Below are positions 1 to 15,569 of a DNA stretch of 20,410 nucleotides, piece by piece. The translations under genes were made by a program, and so were the position numbers. Each line of letters starts with the position of its first letter. Within the stretch, counting starts at the first letter, position 1. Under the pieces are notes generated by a model. It worked only from the letters and a program-made list of their open reading frames with translations, searched no databases and was not told where the DNA came from. The stretch comes from Cellulomonadaceae bacterium (GTDB lineage: Bacteria; Actinomycetota; Actinomycetes; Actinomycetales; Cellulomonadaceae): positions 1 through 20,410 of the forward strand of contig JAITCS010000164.1 of NCBI GenBank assembly GCA_031282935.1. The letters run 5' to 3'.

Positions 1-451
1 CGAGGCCGATGGAAGTGAACCCCGAGAATGCTGCCGGACGACAGGACTCGGGGTTTGCGCATTTATCGCGGCCAACCAAAAGATTCGCTGCGCACGGTTC
101 TTTCAATCTTGCGCCACCATCGAAGGTTGCCAGTTCGAGCAGAAACTACGGCGCCGCAAACGGCATCCGCTGCCCAAAGAAGCGGGTCGGCATTCCCTCT
201 AGTAGTCCGCACTCACCCAACGCCCCAATGATTTCGTCTCGCCGTTTATCAGATTCGTCTTTCCAATGCGTTTTCTTCTGCCCAGGCAACAGCAATTTCT
301 GAAGCCGTAAGCGTGCCTGGTTCTCTGCTTCGATGCCATCGGTTATCACCGCCCCATGGTCAAGGGATTTGTGGTACGTTATACACAGCAAAAACCCTAT
401 AAACCGCTCACGCCTAGAGTGGATTTTTCGGGAATCACTATAGAGGAACAA
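1..451. other. left-edge region with no confident gene
   Basis: About 450 bases precede the first antitoxin start. Open frames exist on both strands, but none has a recognisable domain or a convincing ribosome binding site. A minus-strand frame from about 451 to 146 would code a basic protein that overlaps the antitoxin leader; I do not recognise it. A short minus-strand frame starting ATG at 62-60 runs off the left edge and could be the first codons of a neighbouring gene. The 370-387 stretch (TGTGGTA, CGT, TATACACA) is a partial inverted repeat and could be an autoregulatory operator of the downstream TA pair, as is usual for such modules; this is inference. Confidence 0.3.
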
Positions 452-715
452 ATGTCACAGCTATTGGTCACCGGACTGTCAGACGATCTCACCCAGCGTT
501 TGCAAATGCAAGCCAGCCGTCATGGGCGGGCTTTGCCGGAGGAAGCGCGTCTCATTCTGCTGCGGTCACTACCGCCACAATCGCTACCTGTTACGGAGCC
601 AGTCTCGCTGGGGGAAGCTTTTTGGCAGTTAGGTGAGCGGCTCCGGGCTGAGGGCTTAGGTATCGAACTTGAATTGCCAAAACGGCGCGCTCCCAGAAAG
701 AGTCCTTTCGAATGA
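452..715 (+). CDS. FitA/VapB-like ribbon-helix-helix antitoxin
   Basis: This 87-residue protein is the antitoxin of a type II toxin-antitoxin pair. It should bind and neutralise the PIN RNase encoded just downstream and repress its own promoter. The first ~40 residues (VTGLSDDLTQRLQMQASRHG, then EEARLILLRSL) match the FitA-like/Arc-type RHH pattern of a beta strand followed by two helices. The C-terminal half, with Pro- and Leu-rich and basic stretches, is the expected toxin-wrapping tail. I chose ATG 452 because GAGG lies five bases upstream; a longer in-frame start at 356 has no such site and adds unrelated residues. Its TGA overlaps the toxin ATG (ATGA), so the two are translationally coupled. 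Confidence 0.85.
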   Translation: MSQLLVTGLSDDLTQRLQMQASRHGRALPEEARLILLRSLPPQSLPVTEPVSLGEAFWQLGERLRAEGLGIELELPKRRAPRKSPFE

Positions 716-1176
716 AGGGTTATTTAGCAGACACAAACGTGTGGTCGGCGACATTACTTAATAAGCCGGATCCGAAGTTTGCTGATTGGTATCAGGCTCA
801 CGCCAAAAAGCTCTGGATGCCCAGCGTTTCTGCTGCTGAAATGCTCTACGGTGTACGGCACCTTCCGGCGGGGCGGCGTCGGCATGAACTGGCGAAAGAA
901 ATTGACGCGATCTTGGAGGCCGCACGCCCTAAGATTCTTGACTTCACCGAGGAAGCGGCCAGCTTATTTGCTGATTTTCGGGTAGAGCAAGAGAAGTACG
1001 GCCCAGCGAGCAGCACTGAAGATTTACAGATCGCTGCGATTGCCGCAGCCAATGGACTCACACTGGCAACTCGCAACGTAAAAGACTTTCGCCACCTTGA
1101 TATAAGCATAATCAATCCATGGGAAACAGATAATGCTGAGGAACCAAACGATAAACGCATTGCGACGGTACTCTGA
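712..1176 (+). CDS. PIN-domain toxin, FitB/VapC family
   Basis: A 154-residue type II TA toxin, predicted to be a Mg-dependent endoribonuclease. The PIN acidic residues are all visible: D7 in LADTNVW, E43 in SAAEMLYG, D104 in STEDLQIAAIA and D125 in TRNVKDF. The C-terminal pattern of LATRNVKDF followed by the final strand and INPWE is typical of FitB and related VapC proteins. Its ATG overlaps the antitoxin TGA by the usual ATGA. The gene looks intact, with normal family length (about 135-145) plus a short acidic and basic tail of ~15 residues. It ends convergently with the second TA module, 67 bases away. Confidence 0.88.
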   Translation: MKGYLADTNVWSATLLNKPDPKFADWYQAHAKKLWMPSVSAAEMLYGVRHLPAGRRRHELAKEIDAILEAARPKILDFTEEAASLFADFRVEQEKYGPASSTEDLQIAAIAAANGLTLATRNVKDFRHLDISIINPWETDNAEEPNDKRIATVL

Positions 1177-1243
1177 GTTCGTCTCACACCGGCCTACGGT
1201 TTCCATAATGAACTAAAGCGGCCGTTCCGGCACAATAGTCGGG

Positions 1244-1659
1244 CTAGACGCTGGAAACCGCAATCTCGCTATCGCCCAAAAGCAATCTGATGTCATGCGG
1301 ATCGCCGGTGAGAACGATTACTGGCTTGGGTAAAATGAGCGCGGTAGCCGCCACGATTGCATCCACAGTCAAATCGCGCGCTTTACGGCGAGAGTCGCGA
1401 GCAGCCACTCGTAAAACCCCCGCACTCCGGGCGATTCCGTCCGAAACTTGCACCGTGACCATCGCCTTAAGCACCCGATTCAGGTTCACATCGCGGGAGC
1501 CACCAGTAACAACCTCAGCAAGGGTCAGCGAGGAAACATAGACGGTCGCGCCATTCTCAATCGAATAAGCCAGCCATTTCCGTATTGCGGCGTCTTGGTG
1601 GCAAAAAGCGTGAGCGCTTGCGCATCCAGCAAAATGGACTGCGGCGGTGCGGGTTTCAT
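1244..1659 (-). pseudogene. PIN-domain toxin broken by a -1 frameshift in a poly-T run
   Basis: This is the toxin partner of the antitoxin at 1656-1880. Translation from ATG 1659, which overlaps the antitoxin TGA as ATGA, gives a normal PIN start with ILLDAQALTLFA and its first catalytic Asp. The rest of the PIN domain lies in another frame: RKWLAYSIENGATVYVSS with LAEVV (Glu), then LTVDAIVAATAL (Asp) and LTGDPHDIRLLL (Asp), ending at 1244. The two parts join smoothly if one T is added to the five-T run at 1603-1607 (- strand). The gene is therefore frameshifted, or uses slippage on that run, or carries a sequencing error. All four acidic positions survive. A longer in-frame start at 1669 gives an N-terminus with no PIN motif and is not credible. 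Confidence 0.75.
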
Positions 1660-1880
1660 CCAAAGACACTCTTGAGCCGAGAAACGTCGGCTGGGTCGGT
1701 CGGGCCGTGGATGGCCTCTACCGCAGCCAGCAGTTCCGCAGCCGCATCGCGGCGCAGCCGTTGCGCCGTCGCTTCTGACACATATGCGGAGAACCCGCGC
1801 GAGCCTACCCTCTCGTCCACAGCCTGCGCTACCTCCGGCGGTATCGACACCAAGCGCTTGTCTTTGGTTGAGGGAGCCAC
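1656..1880 (-). CDS. ribbon-helix-helix antitoxin (CopG/VapB type)
   Basis: A 74-residue antitoxin for the frameshifted PIN toxin immediately downstream. KRLVSIPPEVAQAVDERV followed by GFSAYVSEATAQRLRRDAAA fits an RHH DNA-binding core with an 'FSAYV' turn, as seen in many actinobacterial VapB-like proteins. The tail (AIHGPTDPADVSRL) is the usual toxin-binding end. The start is GTG at 1880. No Shine-Dalgarno precedes it, but a good promoter does (-10 TAGGAT ending seven bases before the GTG), so the mRNA may be leaderless. If the toxin is really dead this is an orphan antitoxin that could still repress its own promoter or counter related toxins. Confidence 0.8.
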   Translation of the reverse strand: MAPSTKDKRLVSIPPEVAQAVDERVGSRGFSAYVSEATAQRLRRDAAAELLAAVEAIHGPTDPADVSRLKSVFG

Positions 1881-1886
1881 CGAATT

Positions 1887-1915
1887 ATCCTACTTGAATT
1901 GTTACTGCCGGGCAA
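1887..1915 (-). promoter_or_regulatory. probable promoter of the second TA module
   Basis: Reading the minus strand, TTGCCC (1915-1910) is followed by a 17-base spacer and TAGGAT (1892-1887). Both boxes are close to the actinobacterial housekeeping consensus. Transcription would begin around 1880, on the GTG start codon, giving a leaderless mRNA. AATTC occurs on both sides of the -10 and could be part of the antitoxin operator. Confidence 0.5.
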
Positions 1916-1936
1916 GACCGTTAACCACGGTGACTG

Positions 1937-1962
1937 GCTCGGGCCCGATTCTGTGCCCGAGC
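1937..1962. repeat. perfect 8-bp inverted repeat (hairpin) between TA modules
   Basis: GCTCGGGC (1937-1944) and GCCCGAGC (1955-1962) form a perfect stem with a ten-base loop. It lies downstream of the RelE/ParE toxin (ends 2056 on -), but no T-run follows on either strand. It could be a weak terminator, or an mRNA stabiliser. Nothing else stands out in 1881-2055. Confidence 0.4.
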
Positions 1963-2055
1963 GGCGCAGGTTAGTGCCGCTGAAAGGCCATACCGCTCAG
2001 CAACACGCGGGCTTAACGTGTTGGCCAGCCGTAACACGCCGACCCAAATTAGCAA

Positions 2056-2427
2056 CTACCTAGCCTCGTAATCAAAGCCGCGTTCGCGCCAATACCCAGT
2101 TTTTCGTTTGGTGGCTGCGACCGCAACCACTATCGGCTTGTCAGCAACCACAATAAAAACCACCCGATAGCCAAACCCGCGAACCGCGTGCGATCGAGGA
2201 ATGGGTTTCCCTACCCATTCGGGCCAGGTTAACGCATCCTCCCAAACTGGATAAGCTTCGGGCCAGAAAATAATGTCCTGTATCGCGCGAGTAACCGCAG
2301 CGAGGTATCTTAGCGCTGCGGTTTCACTGAAATCCATGCGCCGATCAAGTTCGGTATCGAATTCATGGCGCGCTTCGGGATGAAATTCGGCTAGAAAGTG
2401 GCTCTCTGCCTCGCCTATTACGACCAC
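2056..2427 (-). CDS. RelE/ParE-superfamily toxin
   Basis: A 123-residue toxin of the RelE/ParE fold. FHPEARHEFDTELDRRMDFS, then a helix with RAIQDIIFWPEAYPVW, then FGYRVVFIVVADKPIVVAVAATKRKTGYW and RE-rich end follow the family's helix-helix-sheet order and its YW.R ending. ParE members inhibit gyrase and RelE members cleave mRNA at the ribosome; the sequence alone does not decide. The GTG start at 2427 overlaps the antitoxin stop by ten bases, so translation is coupled. The final ~35 residues are hydrophobic and basic as expected. It appears intact. Confidence 0.82.
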   Translation of the reverse strand: MVVIGEAESHFLAEFHPEARHEFDTELDRRMDFSETAALRYLAAVTRAIQDIIFWPEAYPVWEDALTWPEWVGKPIPRSHAVRGFGYRVVFIVVADKPIVVAVAATKRKTGYWRERGFDYEAR

Positions 2428-2663
2428 TTTGCTGCGATACGCTCACGGGCTTCAGCGAATACCACGTCACCAGGAATCAGCTTTACCCCGCCGTCCAGAA
2501 TATCGTCAATTCGGGTTCGCACCTCGCCCGACCATTCTTTTTCGAACTCACGCTGCGCCTCGAACTCGGTTATTACCTCGTTAGCCAATGCCAGACGTTC
2601 ATTGATCGGCAACTGGTACAAACCCCTTCGAACATCATCCGCAACCAAACTCATACCCATCAT
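2418..2663 (-). CDS. addiction-module antitoxin (TIGR02574-like)
   Basis: An 81-residue acidic, helical protein partnering the RelE/ParE toxin. The core LPINERLALANEVITEFEAQ, then EKEWSGEVRTRIDDILDGGVKLIPGDVVFAEARERI matches the 'addiction module component' family (about 75 residues), which pairs with RelE/ParE toxins. Three ATG codons compete as start: 2663, 2660 and 2654. A GATAAT -10-like box ends at 2664, so a leaderless start at 2654 or 2660 is plausible. It is the first gene of its two-gene operon, 33 bases downstream of the MFS gene's stop on the same strand. Confidence 0.78.
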   Translation of the reverse strand: MMGMSLVADDVRRGLYQLPINERLALANEVITEFEAQREFEKEWSGEVRTRIDDILDGGVKLIPGDVVFAEARERIAAKWS

Positions 2664-2696: not shown

Positions 2697-4157
2697 CTAG
2701 GCGGCGGTTATTAGTTCGGGGTCGGGGGCCATTATTGCGTTGGCCGTTGCTTTACCAGCGTGTGCAAGGGCGGGGTTCTCAGTTACACTCTGCGGCTCAG
2801 GTAGTTCAGACCCGGCCTGTTGCGGATTGGGGAGGTCAGACACCGGATGCTGCAGTGCGGATAGGTCGGACACGGCTTGGTGCTGCGCGCGGGAGTCGGT
2901 CGCCACCTCATCCATCGCGCCGCCAACGGGGAGCGCTCCGGCGGCGGGAAGCGACCGGCCCGCAGGAAGCGGACGGGCGGCACGGGTGGCCAAAAGGCTC
3001 GCCACCATCGCGATGGTGATCAGCATTAACGCATTACGAATACCCCAAGCGTCGCCCAGCATACCGAGCACGGGCGGCACTGCGAGCATGGAAACCGAGC
3101 TAAACGAACTCGCCACGGAAACTCGCTGCGGCGCCCGATCCCCCTCGTCAGCAGCCGCGCTCATCACGGTTGGCCAAGCCATCGCGGCCCCGGCACCCCA
3201 GAATACGATCCCGGCCCAGGCCAACGGCAACACCGGGGCTGTGGTGAACAACAGCAGGCCCACGAGCGCGGTGGTGCCCGAGCAGTACAGAACTTTCAGG
3301 CGACCGTGCTTTTGCAGCAATTTCGCACCCAACAGGCGCACGGACAACATCGAGATTACGAAAGTGGCATAAGCGAGCGCGCCGAACTCCTCGGGGGTGG
3401 CAAAGGAATCCACCACCGCAAGGTTCAACCAGTTTCCCGCCGAGCCCTCCGACATGGTGGCGGCCATCAGCAGCACCCCAAGCAGCAAGGTGCGCGGTTC
3501 CGTCCACGCCGATTTGCGTTTAGGCGACAATGTTTCACGTGAAACATTTTCGGCACCCGCAGATGCCGTGTTTGCAGGGTTGTGCGACCCGGCGGGGGTG
3601 CCCAAGGCGGTGGCGGGCCTGATCAAAACGGCCCGCAGCGCGGTGATGACAAACGCCAGCCCGATTATGTACCAGCCCGGGTGAACCTCCAGCCGCGCCG
3701 AAAGCGCGCCCAGCGCCGAGCCGAGGGCAGCGCCGATGGGGAAGGCGGCGTGCAACTGCGGTAGCAGCGGCCTGCCCATCATTTTCTCAATCCGCGCGCC
3801 CTCCAGGTTCGAGGTGACGTTGGTGTACGGGTTGGCTAGCCCATTTATCAGAACCCCGACCGCGAAAACCGCCGGTTGCCGCAAAAACAACGATAGGCCC
3901 ACCACGGTTATGCCGACGAAACTCCCCGCTGCGCCCAGCGCGAAACTGCGCCGAGAACCGAGGCGTGGCACCATCATGCCCGACATCATGACCGAGATGA
4001 GCGAGCCGACAGCACCCACCACAATCAACTGGCCTAGTTGGCCCACGGTCAAACCCAGCGCCTCCCGCACCGATGGCGCCCGGCTGCCCCAGGCGGTGAC
4101 GAAAACGCCAAACAGCCCGAACAGCATTAGGAGGCTGACCCGCATCCGGGCCATCAT
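2697..4157 (-). CDS. MFS transporter (YbjJ/fucose-permease-like) carrying a parS site
   Basis: A 486-residue, 12-helix major facilitator protein. WGSRAPSVREALGLT after TM1 and GARIEKMMGRPLLPQLHAAF with IGAALGSALGAL resemble the YbjJ-like subgroup; substrate unknown. The central loop between TM6 and TM7 (~residues 180-220) is long and hydrophilic and encodes ENVSRETLS, which is the translation of a parS palindrome. After TM12 there is an ~85-residue Pro/Ala/Ser/Gln-rich tail with LP and SDL repeats and no recognised domain. The frame stays open upstream to 4550, but that extension reads through dispersed repeats (repeated GWFR.AQPPGA) and a LacI-type operator, so I place the start at the double ATG 4157/4154 just before TM1. 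ATG 4475 cannot be excluded. Confidence 0.8.
   Translation of the reverse strand: MMARMRVSLLMLFGLFGVFVTAWGSRAPSVREALGLTVGQLGQLIVVGAVGSLISVMMSGMMVPRLGSRRSFALGAAGSFVGITVVGLSLFLRQPAVFAVGVLINGLANPYTNVTSNLEGARIEKMMGRPLLPQLHAAFPIGAALGSALGALSARLEVHPGWYIIGLAFVITALRAVLIRPATALGTPAGSHNPANTASAGAENVSRETLSPKRKSAWTEPRTLLLGVLLMAATMSEGSAGNWLNLAVVDSFATPEEFGALAYATFVISMLSVRLLGAKLLQKHGRLKVLYCSGTTALVGLLLFTTAPVLPLAWAGIVFWGAGAAMAWPTVMSAAADEGDRAPQRVSVASSFSSVSMLAVPPVLGMLGDAWGIRNALMLITIAMVASLLATRAARPLPAGRSLPAAGALPVGGAMDEVATDSRAQHQAVSDLSALQHPVSDLPNPQQAGSELPEPQSVTENPALAHAGKATANAIMAPDPELITAA
3531..3546. promoter_or_regulatory. parS, consensus ParB (Spo0J) binding site
   Basis: TGTTTCACGTGAAACA is a perfect 16-bp palindrome and is identical to the canonical chromosomal parS consensus. 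ParB-CTP clamps load here, spread, and recruit SMC for origin segregation. It lies in the MFS gene and is read there as N-V-S-R-E-T. Chromosomal parS sites cluster near oriC, which agrees with the ppiA/crgA/DUF881 block nearby. No second copy was seen in the window. Confidence 0.93.
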
Positions 4158-4188: not shown

Positions 4189-4327
4189 GGTGGTTGAGCG
4201 TGTCGAAACCACCCGCCCGGTGGTTGACGCGCGTTATCCCGCGCGCCCGGTGGTTGAGCCTGTCGAAACCACCCCGGTTGAACCGTTTCTTCCCGCGCCC
4301 CTGGTGGTTGAGCCCGTCGAACCCACC
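4189..4327. repeat. cluster of TGGTTGAGCC...CGAAACCA palindromic repeats upstream of the MFS gene
   Basis: Three 25-bp copies with ends GGTGGTTGAG and CGAAACCACC (third copy slightly decayed) lie at 4189-4213, 4249-4273 and 4303-4327. Between the first two, at 4219-4250, is a GC-hairpin variant: GGTTGA followed by CGCGCG, TTATCC, CGCGCG. The copies share orientation. They are intergenic if the MFS starts at 4157. Same family as the copies at 10541-10616, 10917-10973, 14395-14850 and 15546-15569. Confidence 0.9.
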
Positions 4328-4819: not shown

Positions 4820-5614
4820 CTACCGAAACGGGTTCACATCCGCAGGCAACTGCGCAAAAGTCAACCCTGGCCCCACATAGGCGGGCATTTCCAGGTTCGC
4901 CTCATGAGCGATAGAGAACCCCAACCCTAGCCAGGCCACGTAGTCAAGGAATACCTGCACCCCGGGCGACGCCTCAACGGCAGCCTGCAAACGCGAAGGA
5001 TTCCCGATGGCCGAAACCACGTAGGGCGGACTGAACACCCGCCCGTGCAGCAGCAGCACATTGCCCGTGCACCGGAACGCGGAGGTCATGGTCACCCGCT
5101 CGCCCATGAGGGTCATCGCCTCGGCGCCGCCCGCCCACAGCGCCGCGATCACATGTTGCAGGTCTTGCTGGTGTATCACCAGGTCGTCGTGCGTGACCCC
5201 GGCGATGTCCTGCGCGGCCACGGGGGCGTCGTCTAGGATCACGGTCAGCCCCGGCCCGGACACTGGGATCGAGCCGATGGCCATGCCCTCGGCCTCGGCC
5301 AGCGCCAGGTCGCGGTTCTCGGAAATCCCCGGCGCGGTGTCGGCCTCGGATATGACGGCGATTTTGGCGGTCAGTTCGTCCACCTGCGCGGTCAGGAAGT
5401 CGTTGCGGTAAATCCCGGCCACCACCATTTCGGCGAGATTTTGGGGGCGCCGCAGGGCAGCCGCCGTGTATTCGGCGCCGGTGGAGTTGCCCAGGCCAAT
5501 GCGCGCGAGTTGGGCGTTCGCGGCAAAAACCACGCCCACAAACGCCGCCACGAGGCCCACGGTGATGCCCTTGAGCGAACTCCCCGGTAGGTTTCTGAAT
5601 CTCGGCCCAGCCAC
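4820..5614 (-). CDS. DUF881 family membrane-anchored protein
   Basis: A 264-residue DUF881 protein of unknown biochemical function; the family is conserved next to crgA and ppiA near the origin of actinobacterial chromosomes and also occurs in Firmicutes. There is one N-terminal membrane helix (residues ~14-35), then a coiled-coil stretch (AQVDELTAKIAVISEAD) and the family domain with VSGPGLTVILDD, HQQDLQHVIAALWAGGAEAMTL and FSPPYVVSAIGNP. Start GTG 5614 was chosen because AAAGGGGG ends seven bases upstream. A longer frame starting with TTG at 5668 would run into an 11-bp repeat array. It is divergent from crgA. The gene downstream in most relatives (pabA/pknB cluster) is absent; a HipB remnant follows instead. 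Confidence 0.88.
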   Translation of the reverse strand: MAGPRFRNLPGSSLKGITVGLVAAFVGVVFAANAQLARIGLGNSTGAEYTAAALRRPQNLAEMVVAGIYRNDFLTAQVDELTAKIAVISEADTAPGISENRDLALAEAEGMAIGSIPVSGPGLTVILDDAPVAAQDIAGVTHDDLVIHQQDLQHVIAALWAGGAEAMTLMGERVTMTSAFRCTGNVLLLHGRVFSPPYVVSAIGNPSRLQAAVEASPGVQVFLDYVAWLGLGFSIAHEANLEMPAYVGPGLTFAQLPADVNPFR

Positions 5615-5640
5615 CCAGGCACCCCCTTTCCCAAAATCAG

Positions 5641-5717
5641 ACGCAAACCGAACACAAATCAAGCACAAACCAGATGCAAACCAAACGCAACGCGCACCGA
5701 AACCAAGCGCAACTGAG
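5641..5717. repeat. seven-unit 11-bp phased direct-repeat array
   Basis: Seven consecutive 11-base units with consensus RCGCAAACCAA on + (TTGGTTTGCGT on -) run without a break. The CAAA or equivalent core begins at 5644, 5655, 5666, 5677, 5688, 5699 and 5710, exactly 11 bases apart; units five and seven are the most degenerate. It lies in the 227-bp divergent space between DUF881 and crgA, 27 bases upstream of the DUF881 start. Tandem 11-bp direct repeats are the usual operator form of OmpR/PhoB-family response regulators (PHO boxes, MtrA sites), so this may be a multi-site operator; that is inference. Confidence 0.8.
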
Positions 5718-5841: not shown

Positions 5842-6111
5842 GTGCCAGTATCAAAGGTTCGGAAAAAGAACACCCCCAAGCGCAATCGCACCGCCGCCGC
5901 GCCGGTAGTTGTGGCCGACAACCGCCCCAATCCGCCGTGGTTCCTGCCCGTGATGCTCGGCCTGATGCTGCTCGGTTTGCTCTGGATCGTGACGTTTTAC
6001 ATCACCGCTGGCGGCCTGCGCCTGCCCATCCCCACCATCGGCAACTGGAATCTGGCCATCGGGTTCGCGCTGATCATCGCCGGTTTCGGCATGACCACCC
6101 GCTGGCGCTAA
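5842..6111 (+). CDS. crgA: cell division protein CrgA
   Basis: An 89-residue CrgA (UPF0233) protein. CrgA is a small membrane protein of the divisome that binds FtsZ, FtsI and FtsQ and modulates septation and peptidoglycan synthesis in actinobacteria. The basic N-terminus (KVRKKNTPKRNR) is followed by the signature NPPWFLPVMLGLMLLGLLWI (first membrane helix, ~33-55), then IGNWNLAIGF (second helix ~70-86) and the terminal GFGMTTRWR. Length and both helices are typical. Start GTG 5842 has GGAG seven bases upstream. It is divergent from DUF881 and convergent with the rhomboid gene, the usual neighbourhood. Confidence 0.97.
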   Translation: MPVSKVRKKNTPKRNRTAAAPVVVADNRPNPPWFLPVMLGLMLLGLLWIVTFYITAGGLRLPIPTIGNWNLAIGFALIIAGFGMTTRWR

Positions 6112-6265: not shown

Positions 6266-7549
6266 TTAGGCGCTGCGGATTAGGGCTAACCAGCCCGAGG
6301 TGTCGTAGCGCAGGAAGGCAGCCAGGGTCAGCAGCGCCAGCACAGCGATGGGCAGACCCCAAGCGACCGCCTTGCTGAGCGCGGTGTTTCGGCTGACGGC
6401 GGCCTTAATTGGCGTCTGGGTTGCAGTCGAACCCACCGTGACAACCTGCGCGGAAGCTTGGCCCGCAATCATGCCCGATTCTTCCAGCGGCAGAGCGCTA
6501 GCCGCATCACCACCAGCACCGCTAGCAGTATAAGGCCCAACAACTCCAGATGACCCACTAGGACTTCCAGGCCCGAGCGCGCCAGCAGCATAGGGCCCGC
6601 CAACGGGCCCGGAAACATAAGAACCACCCGCACCAGCAACAACGCCAGGAGTATAAGGTCCACCGGCACTTCCAGGCCCACTAACACCAATACCTGAGCC
6701 GCTTCGGAGTCCGCGAGCGCCAGCACCTACGCCGCCAGCGCGGCGACCACCGAACATTCGGCCCAAAAGCGACGGCGCGTGCGCGTAGGCGTAACCCATC
6801 GCCAGCCCCACCGCGAAGCCGCCGAGGTGCGCCTGCCAGGCGATGCCCGGCACCACAAACCCCAGCACGGCGTTGATCGCGATCAGCCCCAAAATACTCC
6901 GCACCGACGACCCGGCCCGCTTCAACACTGGAATCAGCGCCCCGAACAGCCCGAACACGATCCCCGACGCCCCGACCACGGGCGTGTACCAGCCGCCGCC
7001 CTGCACCAGCGGCCCTTGAGCCAGCAGCAGGAAACCCACCGAGCCGCCGAGCGCCGTCAGTAGGCACAGGGTGGCGAATCGGGCATGGCCCAGCGCGCGC
7101 TCCAAAATCTGCCCGCACTGGTAAAAGGCCATCATGTTGAACAGAATATGCCCGATAAACCCGGTCGAGTGCAAGAACGCGGCCGTGAGGAAACGCCAAG
7201 GCTGGGTGGCCCCGATGAAAGGCGAGAACGCGAACATTTGCGTCCACCTGCCCTGCGTAATCCACTGCAGCGCGAAACTCGCCACACACAGCCCGATGAT
7301 GCCGTAGGTGACGTAGAGTTTGGCCGGAATCCGTCCCCCGAACATGGAGCGCCGCTCGGGCATGGCTTTTTGGGCACCCGAAACACAGCCCTCGCACTGC
7401 ACTCCCACTGCGGCGGGGCGCATGTCTTCGGGACAGATGTGCCGGTCACAGCGCTGACACCGGACATAAGTGACCCTCTCCGGGTGCCGGTAGCACACCG
7501 GCGCGTCCGCAACGCCAGGCTGAACCCCCGCCCCGTGACTAAGGCTCAA
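6266..7549 (-). CDS. rhomboid family intramembrane serine protease with zinc finger and Gly/Ser linker
   Basis: A 427-residue rhomboid protease. Residues 19-55 are the B-box-type zinc finger common in actinobacterial rhomboids (C19, H22, C31, C34, C39, C52, C55); the usual second Cys of CP.C is Asp here (CPED). Six helices follow (~75-258) with H134/N138 in HILFNM, catalytic S195 in GASG and H241 in AHLGG. Unusual is a ~130-residue low-complexity linker (264-395) with repeated GPY and GPGS motifs before a seventh helix (~395-412); relatives normally have only a short link. The TTG start at 7549 overlaps the ppiA stop by 11 bases; no strong ribosome site is visible, so it is probably coupled to ppiA. 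Confidence 0.9.
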
Positions 7550-8078
7550 CGGTCACCGAGTTAATGGTCACGGGCTGCCGTGGCCTATCCCCAGCCCCGG
7601 TGGGCACTGCCTCAATCTGGTCAACCACCCGCTTGGACTCTTCGTCGGCCACCTCCCCAAAAATGGTGTGCTTGCCGTTGAGGTGCGGGGTTTTCGTCGT
7701 CGTAATAAAGAACTGCGAACCGTTGGTGCCCTCAGCCGCCCCCGTGATCGGGTTGCGCCGCTTGCCGGCGTTCGCCATAGCCAACAGGTACGGGCGGTCA
7801 AAAGCCAACCCCGAACCCACCTCGTCGTCGAACTGATAACCGGGGCCGCCCGTGCCAGTGCCCAGCGGGTCCCCGCCCTGAATCATGAAGCCGGAAATCA
7901 CGCGGTGGAACGGCACGCCGTCATACAAAGGCGCAGTGGTTTTGGCGCCCGTGCGCGGGTCGGTCCATTCCTTAGCGCCCGTGGCCAAATCAGTGAAGTT
8001 GCGCACAGTTTTGGGCGCCTCGTTGGGGAACAGGTTTAGCCGAATATCCCCATAGTTTGTGTGTAAAGTTGCCACCAT
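7539..8078 (-). CDS. ppiA: peptidyl-prolyl cis-trans isomerase, cyclophilin type
   Basis: A 179-residue cytoplasmic cyclophilin that catalyses proline isomerisation. Signatures in order: [39 protein letters not shown] (catalytic Arg), [22 protein letters not shown] and [12 protein letters not shown]. There is no signal peptide. Start ATG 8078 was chosen because AAGGAG lies ten bases upstream; the in-frame TTG nine bases earlier sits on that site. It is the first gene of a ppiA-rhomboid operon and is divergent from the alanine-rich gene. The location next to rhomboid and crgA matches ppiA near the origin in other actinobacteria. Confidence 0.96.
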
Positions 8079-8101
8079 TTGACTCAATCTCCTTACGGCG
8101 C

Positions 8102-10540: not shown

Positions 10541-10616
10541 GGTGGTTGAGCCGCCCCGGTGGTTGAGCCGCCCCGGTGGTTGAGCCGCCCCGGTGGTTGA
10601 GCCTGTCGAAACCACC
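10541..10616 (+). repeat. three 17-bp tandem half-repeats plus one full palindrome
   Basis: GGTGGTTGAGCCGCCCC is repeated exactly three times (10541-10557, 10558-10574, 10575-10591). A complete 25-bp palindrome of the family, GGTGGTTGAG to CGAAACCACC, follows at 10592-10616. The array ends 16 bases before the ribosome site of the DLW-39 gene, so it must be in or just upstream of its leader. Confidence 0.93.
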
Positions 10617-10916: not shown

Positions 10917-10973
10917 GGTGGTTTCGACAGGCTCAACCACCGAGTGTCCCGTTGGTTGAGCCTGTCGAAACCA
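10917..10973. repeat. two short palindromic repeats between DLW-39 and dapL
   Basis: One 25-bp copy (GGTGGTTTCGAC to CTCAACCACC) at 10917-10941 and a second of opposite written orientation, TGGTTGAGCC to CGAAACCA, at 10953-10973. They lie in the convergent gap downstream of the terminator and of dapL (stop at 11006) and could act as transcript ends for dapL. Confidence 0.88.
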
Positions 10974-11005
10974 CTGGGGGTCTGGAAACCACCCGACGCC
11001 GTCGC

Positions 11006-15515: not shown

Positions 15516-15545
15516 TATGAATAGTCCGCGTAGTGTGGTTTCGCC

Positions 15546-15569
15546 GGGGTTTCGACAGGCTCAACCACC
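15546..15569. repeat. palindromic repeat that supplies the xylanase stop codon
   Basis: GGGGTTTCGACAGG and CTCAACCACC, a copy of the short repeat. On the minus strand its GGTGGTTGA arm is read as Gly-Gly-stop, the last codons of the xylanase. The repeat therefore lies across the 3' end of that gene and 31 bases upstream of mntA. Confidence 0.88.

Follow-up and report, generated by a model that had tools for sequence, protein, structure and literature searches.

A perfect parS palindrome inside a transporter gene is probably one member of an expanded set of predicted ParB-loading sites in a Cellulomonadaceae bacterium

In chromosome partition of the ParABS type, parS is the DNA entry point for the partition protein ParB: it loads CTP-bound ParB clamps, and the sliding clamps support both ParA-driven segregation and condensin loading. 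A review and a research paper describe the system in the same terms, and name the varying number of parS sites and the driver of expansion of the centromere-like region as open questions (PMC7333895, PMC5815017). Published accounts give one to 20 sites per genome (PMC10197239) or up to 20-23 (PMC7333895), and for Streptomyces an average of 22.8 parS (range 11-65, matrix-predicted in 20 closed genomes), most of them near oriC (PMC8743542). In Pseudomonas aeruginosa, according to PMC7022226, ParB is found at many places beyond the core centromere through a 7-base half-parS. As for placement, PMC5815017 reports that Caulobacter tolerates extra parS sites within ~500 kb around its native cluster, and that P. 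aeruginosa requires parS within ~650 kb around ori.

Here we analyze a predicted parS in a Cellulomonadaceae genome assembled to 1.50 Mb in 228 contigs (65.5% complete). The site lies in a 20,410-nt stretch of DNA, the whole of which we call the window, together with the following features.

3531-3546, no strand: parS, perfect 16-bp consensus TGTTTCACGTGAAACA (consensus match and window scan)
3529-3548, no strand: extended 20-bp perfect palindrome AATGTTTCACGTGAAACATT (sequence; its A/T extension is frequent among 34 genomic sites)
2697-4157, minus strand: MFS transporter gene hosting parS (PF07690, alignment, relatives; start probably near 4157, program-made ORF to 4550)
3507-3602, approximate limits, minus strand: length-variable transporter loop with N-V-S-R-E-T (alignment, translation)
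4823-5668, minus strand: DUF881 protein gene, origin-side neighbour (PF05949; counterpart 18 kb from dnaA in congener G009)
5842-6111, plus strand: crgA, cell division gene of the origin-side block (PF06781)
6266-7549, minus strand: rhomboid protease gene (PF01694; counterpart 17 kb from dnaA in G009)
7539-8087, minus strand: cyclophilin-type peptidyl-prolyl isomerase gene (PF00160; counterpart 16 kb from dnaA in G009)

The 16-mer at 3531-3546 matches the parS consensus without a mismatch, as originally predicted, and is the sole match at up to three mismatches in the window; 100 shuffled windows gave a mean of 0.03 such matches, with any match at all in 3 of the 100. Extended to the 20-mer AATGTTTCACGTGAAACATT, it has 8 exact copies in the own contigs searched vs. 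0 in 1.55 Mb of G009. The site is read in frame within the minus-strand MFS ORF, where translation gives the peptide N-V-S-R-E-T. It has both the sequence of a ParABS-type parS, being a 16-bp palindrome identical to TGTTTCACGTGAAACA, and the expected partners, as parA (ParA-type AAA_31) and parB (ParB_N, HTH_ParB, ParB_C) are encoded in the same genome, on contig C43, which is separate from the window contig and itself carries three parS sites. The ParB protein contains GERRWRA, which we take to resemble the CTP box of ParB, and the SMC hinge family had no match in the searched part of the 65%-complete genome.

Pfam assignments bear out two elements of the described neighbourhood: the site adjoins origin-side genes (DUF881, CrgA, rhomboid, cyclophilin), and toxin-antitoxin modules do lie beside the transporter. 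The latter comprise a PIN protein paired with a FitA-like antitoxin; another PIN-like ORF, whose 21.9 bits are slightly under the Pfam cut-off of 23.6 bits; and an antitoxin ORF of the PF09720 family whose small partner gave no Pfam match. These toxin-antitoxin-like genes cluster at window positions 356-2663, adjoining the origin-side block. When mapped to G009, some genes of the window have their counterpart 1.8 Mb from dnaA. A dispersed 25-bp repeat, GGTGGTTGAGCNTGTCGAAACCACC, occurs at 4189-4327, 10592-10616, 10917-10975 and 15545-15569, with 7 window copies at up to three mismatches vs. 0 in 100 shuffles; its 10-base core is found 78 times in 435 kb of own contigs vs. 3 times in 1.55 Mb of G009.

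The host ORF matches PF07690 with 97 bits. Its start is probably near 4157 rather than 4550, since the matched stretches of nine aligned relatives begin near residues 100-135 of the program-made ORF and the N-terminal part of that ORF contains dispersed repeats; the match of L042, a locus left out of the alignment, is reported from residue 14. In the alignment with the nine relatives, the parS position falls in a gappy, length-variable stretch flanked by two well-conserved transporter parts, in keeping with the prediction that N-V-S-R-E-T occupies a tolerant loop. A variable stretch between two conserved parts also agrees with the putative TM6-TM7 loop.

Transporter matches occur in 10/10 congeners (8/10 at E <= 1.4e-107), and five congeners have the transporter and dnaA on the same contig, at distances of ~50 kb (G009), 53 kb (G010), 46 kb (G005), 84 kb (G002) and, for a match that is partial (E 2.5e-65), 56 kb in G006. 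None of 29 fetched relative transporter loci (L039-L067, gene plus ~1.5 kb on each side), among which are four of these five congeners with G006 left out, has a parS at up to three mismatches; a scan of named genomes for a transporter relative found none. With matches in every congener and no parS at the relative loci, the transporter seems to be a gene that the genus ordinarily has on the origin side, not the accessory gene it had been taken for, and the simplest reading of these sequences is that parS was gained later in a transporter that was already present. The idea that selection on parS holds the transporter in place fares no better: the site is not needed to keep the gene there, because relatives retain the transporter without it.

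We next consider the genome-wide scan for 16-mers within two mismatches that the original prediction had called for, which returned 34 sites on 28 contigs (11 perfect, 25 within one mismatch and 39 within three). The reversed pattern, used as control in the same genome, gave 0 matches at two mismatches and 2 at three; a chance origin of the whole set is rejected on this difference (34 vs. 0), and some two-mismatch sites may be chance matches. The ten congeners carry 0-9 sites each (the one with 0 also has no dnaA match, in an assembly that is 72% complete), and the range over 118 relatives is 0-13. Across 396 genomes sampled from the phylum, our own included, five others reach at least 34 sites: an f21 g62 genome of 8.6 Mb has 35, and four genomes of family f42 have 38-164. 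A further genome of the same order (G107, family f4; 2.0 Mb) has 13 parS-like sites within two mismatches on several contigs, none of them perfect.

These counts bear directly on the possibility that the site at 3531 is one of a few main origin parS sites, selection for which would keep the transporter in place. Its perfect consensus favours this, as do its origin-side neighbours and a host gene ~50 kb from dnaA in most congeners where the distance is readable. However, the site is not singled out among 11 perfect copies and 34 within two mismatches, three of which lie on the parAB contig, and four congeners have the transporter about as far from dnaA with no parS in the fetched locus. We consider this explanation unlikely, and regard the three sites on the parAB contig as a better candidate for the centromere core than the 3531 site.

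How the sites lie relative to dnaA also sets this genome apart from its congeners. All nine sites in G009 are 3.2-7.8 kb from dnaA, and 29/30 sites pooled over G005-G009 are within 12 kb of it (G005 6/6, G006 6/7, G007 5/5, G008 3/3). All 8 sites of G010 are within 5 kb of one another, their distance to dnaA crossing a contig end, and 5/7 sites in G001 and 2/4 in G004 are on the dnaA contig with the remainder on other contigs. The compact cluster of G005-G009 thus shares the identical 16-mer with our site but comprises 3-9 sites beside dnaA, with none in the fetched transporter loci, whereas in our genome, which has one dnaA and one parB match only, the sites are spread over many contigs instead of lying within ~12 kb of dnaA, and the dnaA contig (C36, 5.4 kb) has no site within two mismatches.

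Since our assembly is in 228 contigs and 65% complete, positions in it were taken from G009, by mapping the proteins of the 28 parS contigs and of 33 other contigs against 1.55 Mb of that genome. With the dnaA contig left out, 15 of the parS contigs and 14 of the controls could be anchored, leaving 13 and 18 unplaced, respectively. For 18/19 anchored sites the nearest anchor lies at -396 to +420 kb from dnaA, with one at -726 kb, in coordinates of a genome whose gene order is rearranged relative to ours, so that anchors inside one contig often disagree. Median distance from dnaA is 171 kb for the 15 parS contigs vs. 377.5 kb for the 14 controls, which were chosen by contig number and not at random (p = 0.021, one-sided rank test), and 1/15 parS contigs vs. 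6/14 controls lie more than 500 kb away (p = 0.035), this being one of several distance cut-offs tried; near/far cut-offs at 200 and 400 kb gave no significant difference (p = 0.14 and 0.11; p = 0.11 at 200 kb in another run). Coverage of the G009 reference favours the origin region, equally for parS and control contigs. Collectively, these comparisons suggest a modest preference of the placeable sites for the origin side, and the spread of ~400 kb on each side in G009 coordinates would be similar to, or somewhat wider than, the Caulobacter and P. aeruginosa limits. As to the near-origin placement originally proposed for the 3531 site, its host gene has counterparts 46-84 kb from dnaA in five congeners, with dnaA on a separate contig in our fragmented assembly, so that the site may lie in the origin domain; it is not singled out as the main parS. 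Most likely it would be an auxiliary ParB loading point ~50 kb out.

To see how the sites might have arisen, we inspected their 40-base flanks visually and counted the bases at each of the first ten positions. The flanks of the 34 sites are A-rich before and T-rich after the palindrome over the first 2-3 positions and otherwise have nothing visible in common; sharing just these 2-3 A/T-rich bases, they give no sign that the sites were copied as parts of a longer element. A total of 29/34 sites fall in an open frame of 100 codons or more, which by itself is no proof of a gene; of the other five, two are close to a contig end or right at it. In 16/29 the longest of these frames reads x-V-S-R-E-T. 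One open frame of at least 4392 codons (L034 on C99, 1823-14998, minus strand) contains a perfect parS read as D-V-S-R-E-T.

A Pfam scan of 16 other site-bearing frames, whose gene labels are inferred from domains, left five without a domain and gave one epimerase-like frame with the site at the gene start. In 6/16 the site falls outside the matched domains (KhpB-like, PknB-like, ETF alpha, FtsK/SpoIIIE-type, M3 peptidase, HrpA-like helicase) and in 4/16 inside one (ParA, glutamate synthase, LysR regulator, RadA-like protein); each of these two groups includes two two-mismatch sites. Judged from these frames and flanks, the sites seem to have been gained de novo again and again, in many cases, though not in all, at positions that the protein would be expected to tolerate.

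The same data bear on the notion that the motif is mostly neutral, or the target of some other palindrome-reading regulator, and plays no role in partition. ParB binding here is a prediction, and the set includes variants such as TGTTCCACGTGGAACA, both of which leave room for such a reading; set against it are the excess over the reversed pattern (34 vs. 0), the position of 29/34 sites inside open frames, unlike most regulator operators, the three sites on the parAB contig, and the recurrence of the TGTTCCACGTGGAACA variant, tightly clustered, in genomes elsewhere in the phylum. We find this explanation improbable. We give still less credence to an assembly artefact in which parS contigs of more than one organism were binned together. 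The 228 contigs and 65% completeness would invite it, but the contamination estimate is 1%, dnaA and parB each have a single match, and the 10-base repeat core is present in 15/28 parS and 10/33 other contigs but just 3 times in 1.55 Mb of G009; the GC content of parS contigs is 0.588 (sd 0.022), the control GC and tetranucleotide figures being distorted by one masked contig. Spread of the sites by a mobile or repeated element carrying parS, which the high copy number and the four tandem copies of the distant genome G543 might suggest, is very improbable and is rejected, as the 40-base flanks of the 34 own sites appear unrelated beyond 2-3 bases.

We thus favour, as quite probable, the explanation that the 3531 16-mer is a predicted parS belonging to a lineage-specific, de novo expanded field of ParB-loading sites, mainly on the origin side. 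Under such expansion, parS palindromes would have formed repeatedly at unrelated positions, most likely via point mutation: in variable loops and linkers within genes, inside certain conserved domains, and between genes. ParB dimers would bind CTP, close as clamps on each parS and slide into adjoining DNA, and the clamps would jointly define a wide origin domain that serves segregation by ParA and the loading of condensin, replacing the single compact cluster that relatives keep within ~12 kb of dnaA. The sequences themselves show the sites, how many there are, their unrelated flanks, a parA and a parB, and by synteny a modest origin-side bias; that ParB binds the sites and loads on them as clamps, that condensin is recruited and that selection maintains the sites is inferred.

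Among known systems, Streptomyces likewise has numerous parS sites, and the 11 f21 g62 genomes of our sample (6-10 Mb), presumably Streptomyces-like, carry 8-35 within two mismatches; however, those chromosomes measure 6-10 Mb, whereas ours has at least 34 sites in 1.5 Mb at 65% completeness, with congeners at 0-9. The P. aeruginosa half-parS resembles our field in that ParB would occupy many places outside the core, occupancy in our genome being a prediction, but those are 7-base half sites and ours are full palindromes.

A far larger expansion is seen in Eggerthellaceae, with up to 157 sites within one mismatch. Family f42 is Eggerthellaceae, as judged by named relatives of the G486 DnaA, and we take it to belong to a class distant from our genome. 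At least 30 sites within one mismatch occur in 26/138 of these genomes and at least 100 in 10/138, with many others at 0-17; the expanded ones include G486, G582, G583, G412, G286, G587 and G614 (loci L210-L263). In G486, with dnaA at 1.8 kb, 36 of the 92 perfect sites listed are in the first 200 kb and 17 at 1.2-2.6 Mb, so that among the sites listed, in which the other arm is under-represented, density is highest on the dnaA side. Surroundings of dnaA reach at least 0.55 sites/kb (within one mismatch) in 17/55 fetched loci and have none in 6/55, with examples in Gordonibacter pamelaeae (14 in 21.6 kb), Adlercreutzia faecimuris (21 in 21.6 kb) and Eggerthella sinensis (12 in 21.5 kb). The likeness to our genome lies in numerous scattered parS sites, with the listed perfect sites of G486 densest toward dnaA; the difference lies in much denser sites, some in close or tandem copies. 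Separately, in G543 (C1:98884-99127) four parS copies form a tandem array with 76-bp spacing.

Within the accessible portions of the open-access literature on Eggerthella or Coriobacteri parS, we found no report of an expansion on this scale, and the Eggerthellaceae counts exceed the published figures found there (20-23 as the usual maximum, 65 predicted in one Streptomyces). Nor did that literature, as far as its available text goes, yield comparable parS numbers for Cellulomonas or more than 100 parS anywhere. Our best reading is that the phenomenon is known in kind and new in degree, because published counts are 1-23, with 11-65 predicted in Streptomyces: at least 34 sites in a 1.5-Mb partial genome whose congeners have 0-9 is something we did not find in print.

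A species with at least 34 sites beside congeners with 0-9 offers a sharp contrast for the question of parS expansion, and the window supplies an example of a new site, placed in a variable loop of an otherwise ordinary gene that relatives carry ~50 kb from dnaA. More speculatively, and in our view possible but doubtful, the lineage may have passed from a compact to a diffuse centromere over a large origin-side share of the chromosome, with ParB as a domain-wide organiser, and Eggerthellaceae may independently have gone further still. If true, the size of the bacterial centromere would be a freely evolving trait with repeated runaway expansions.
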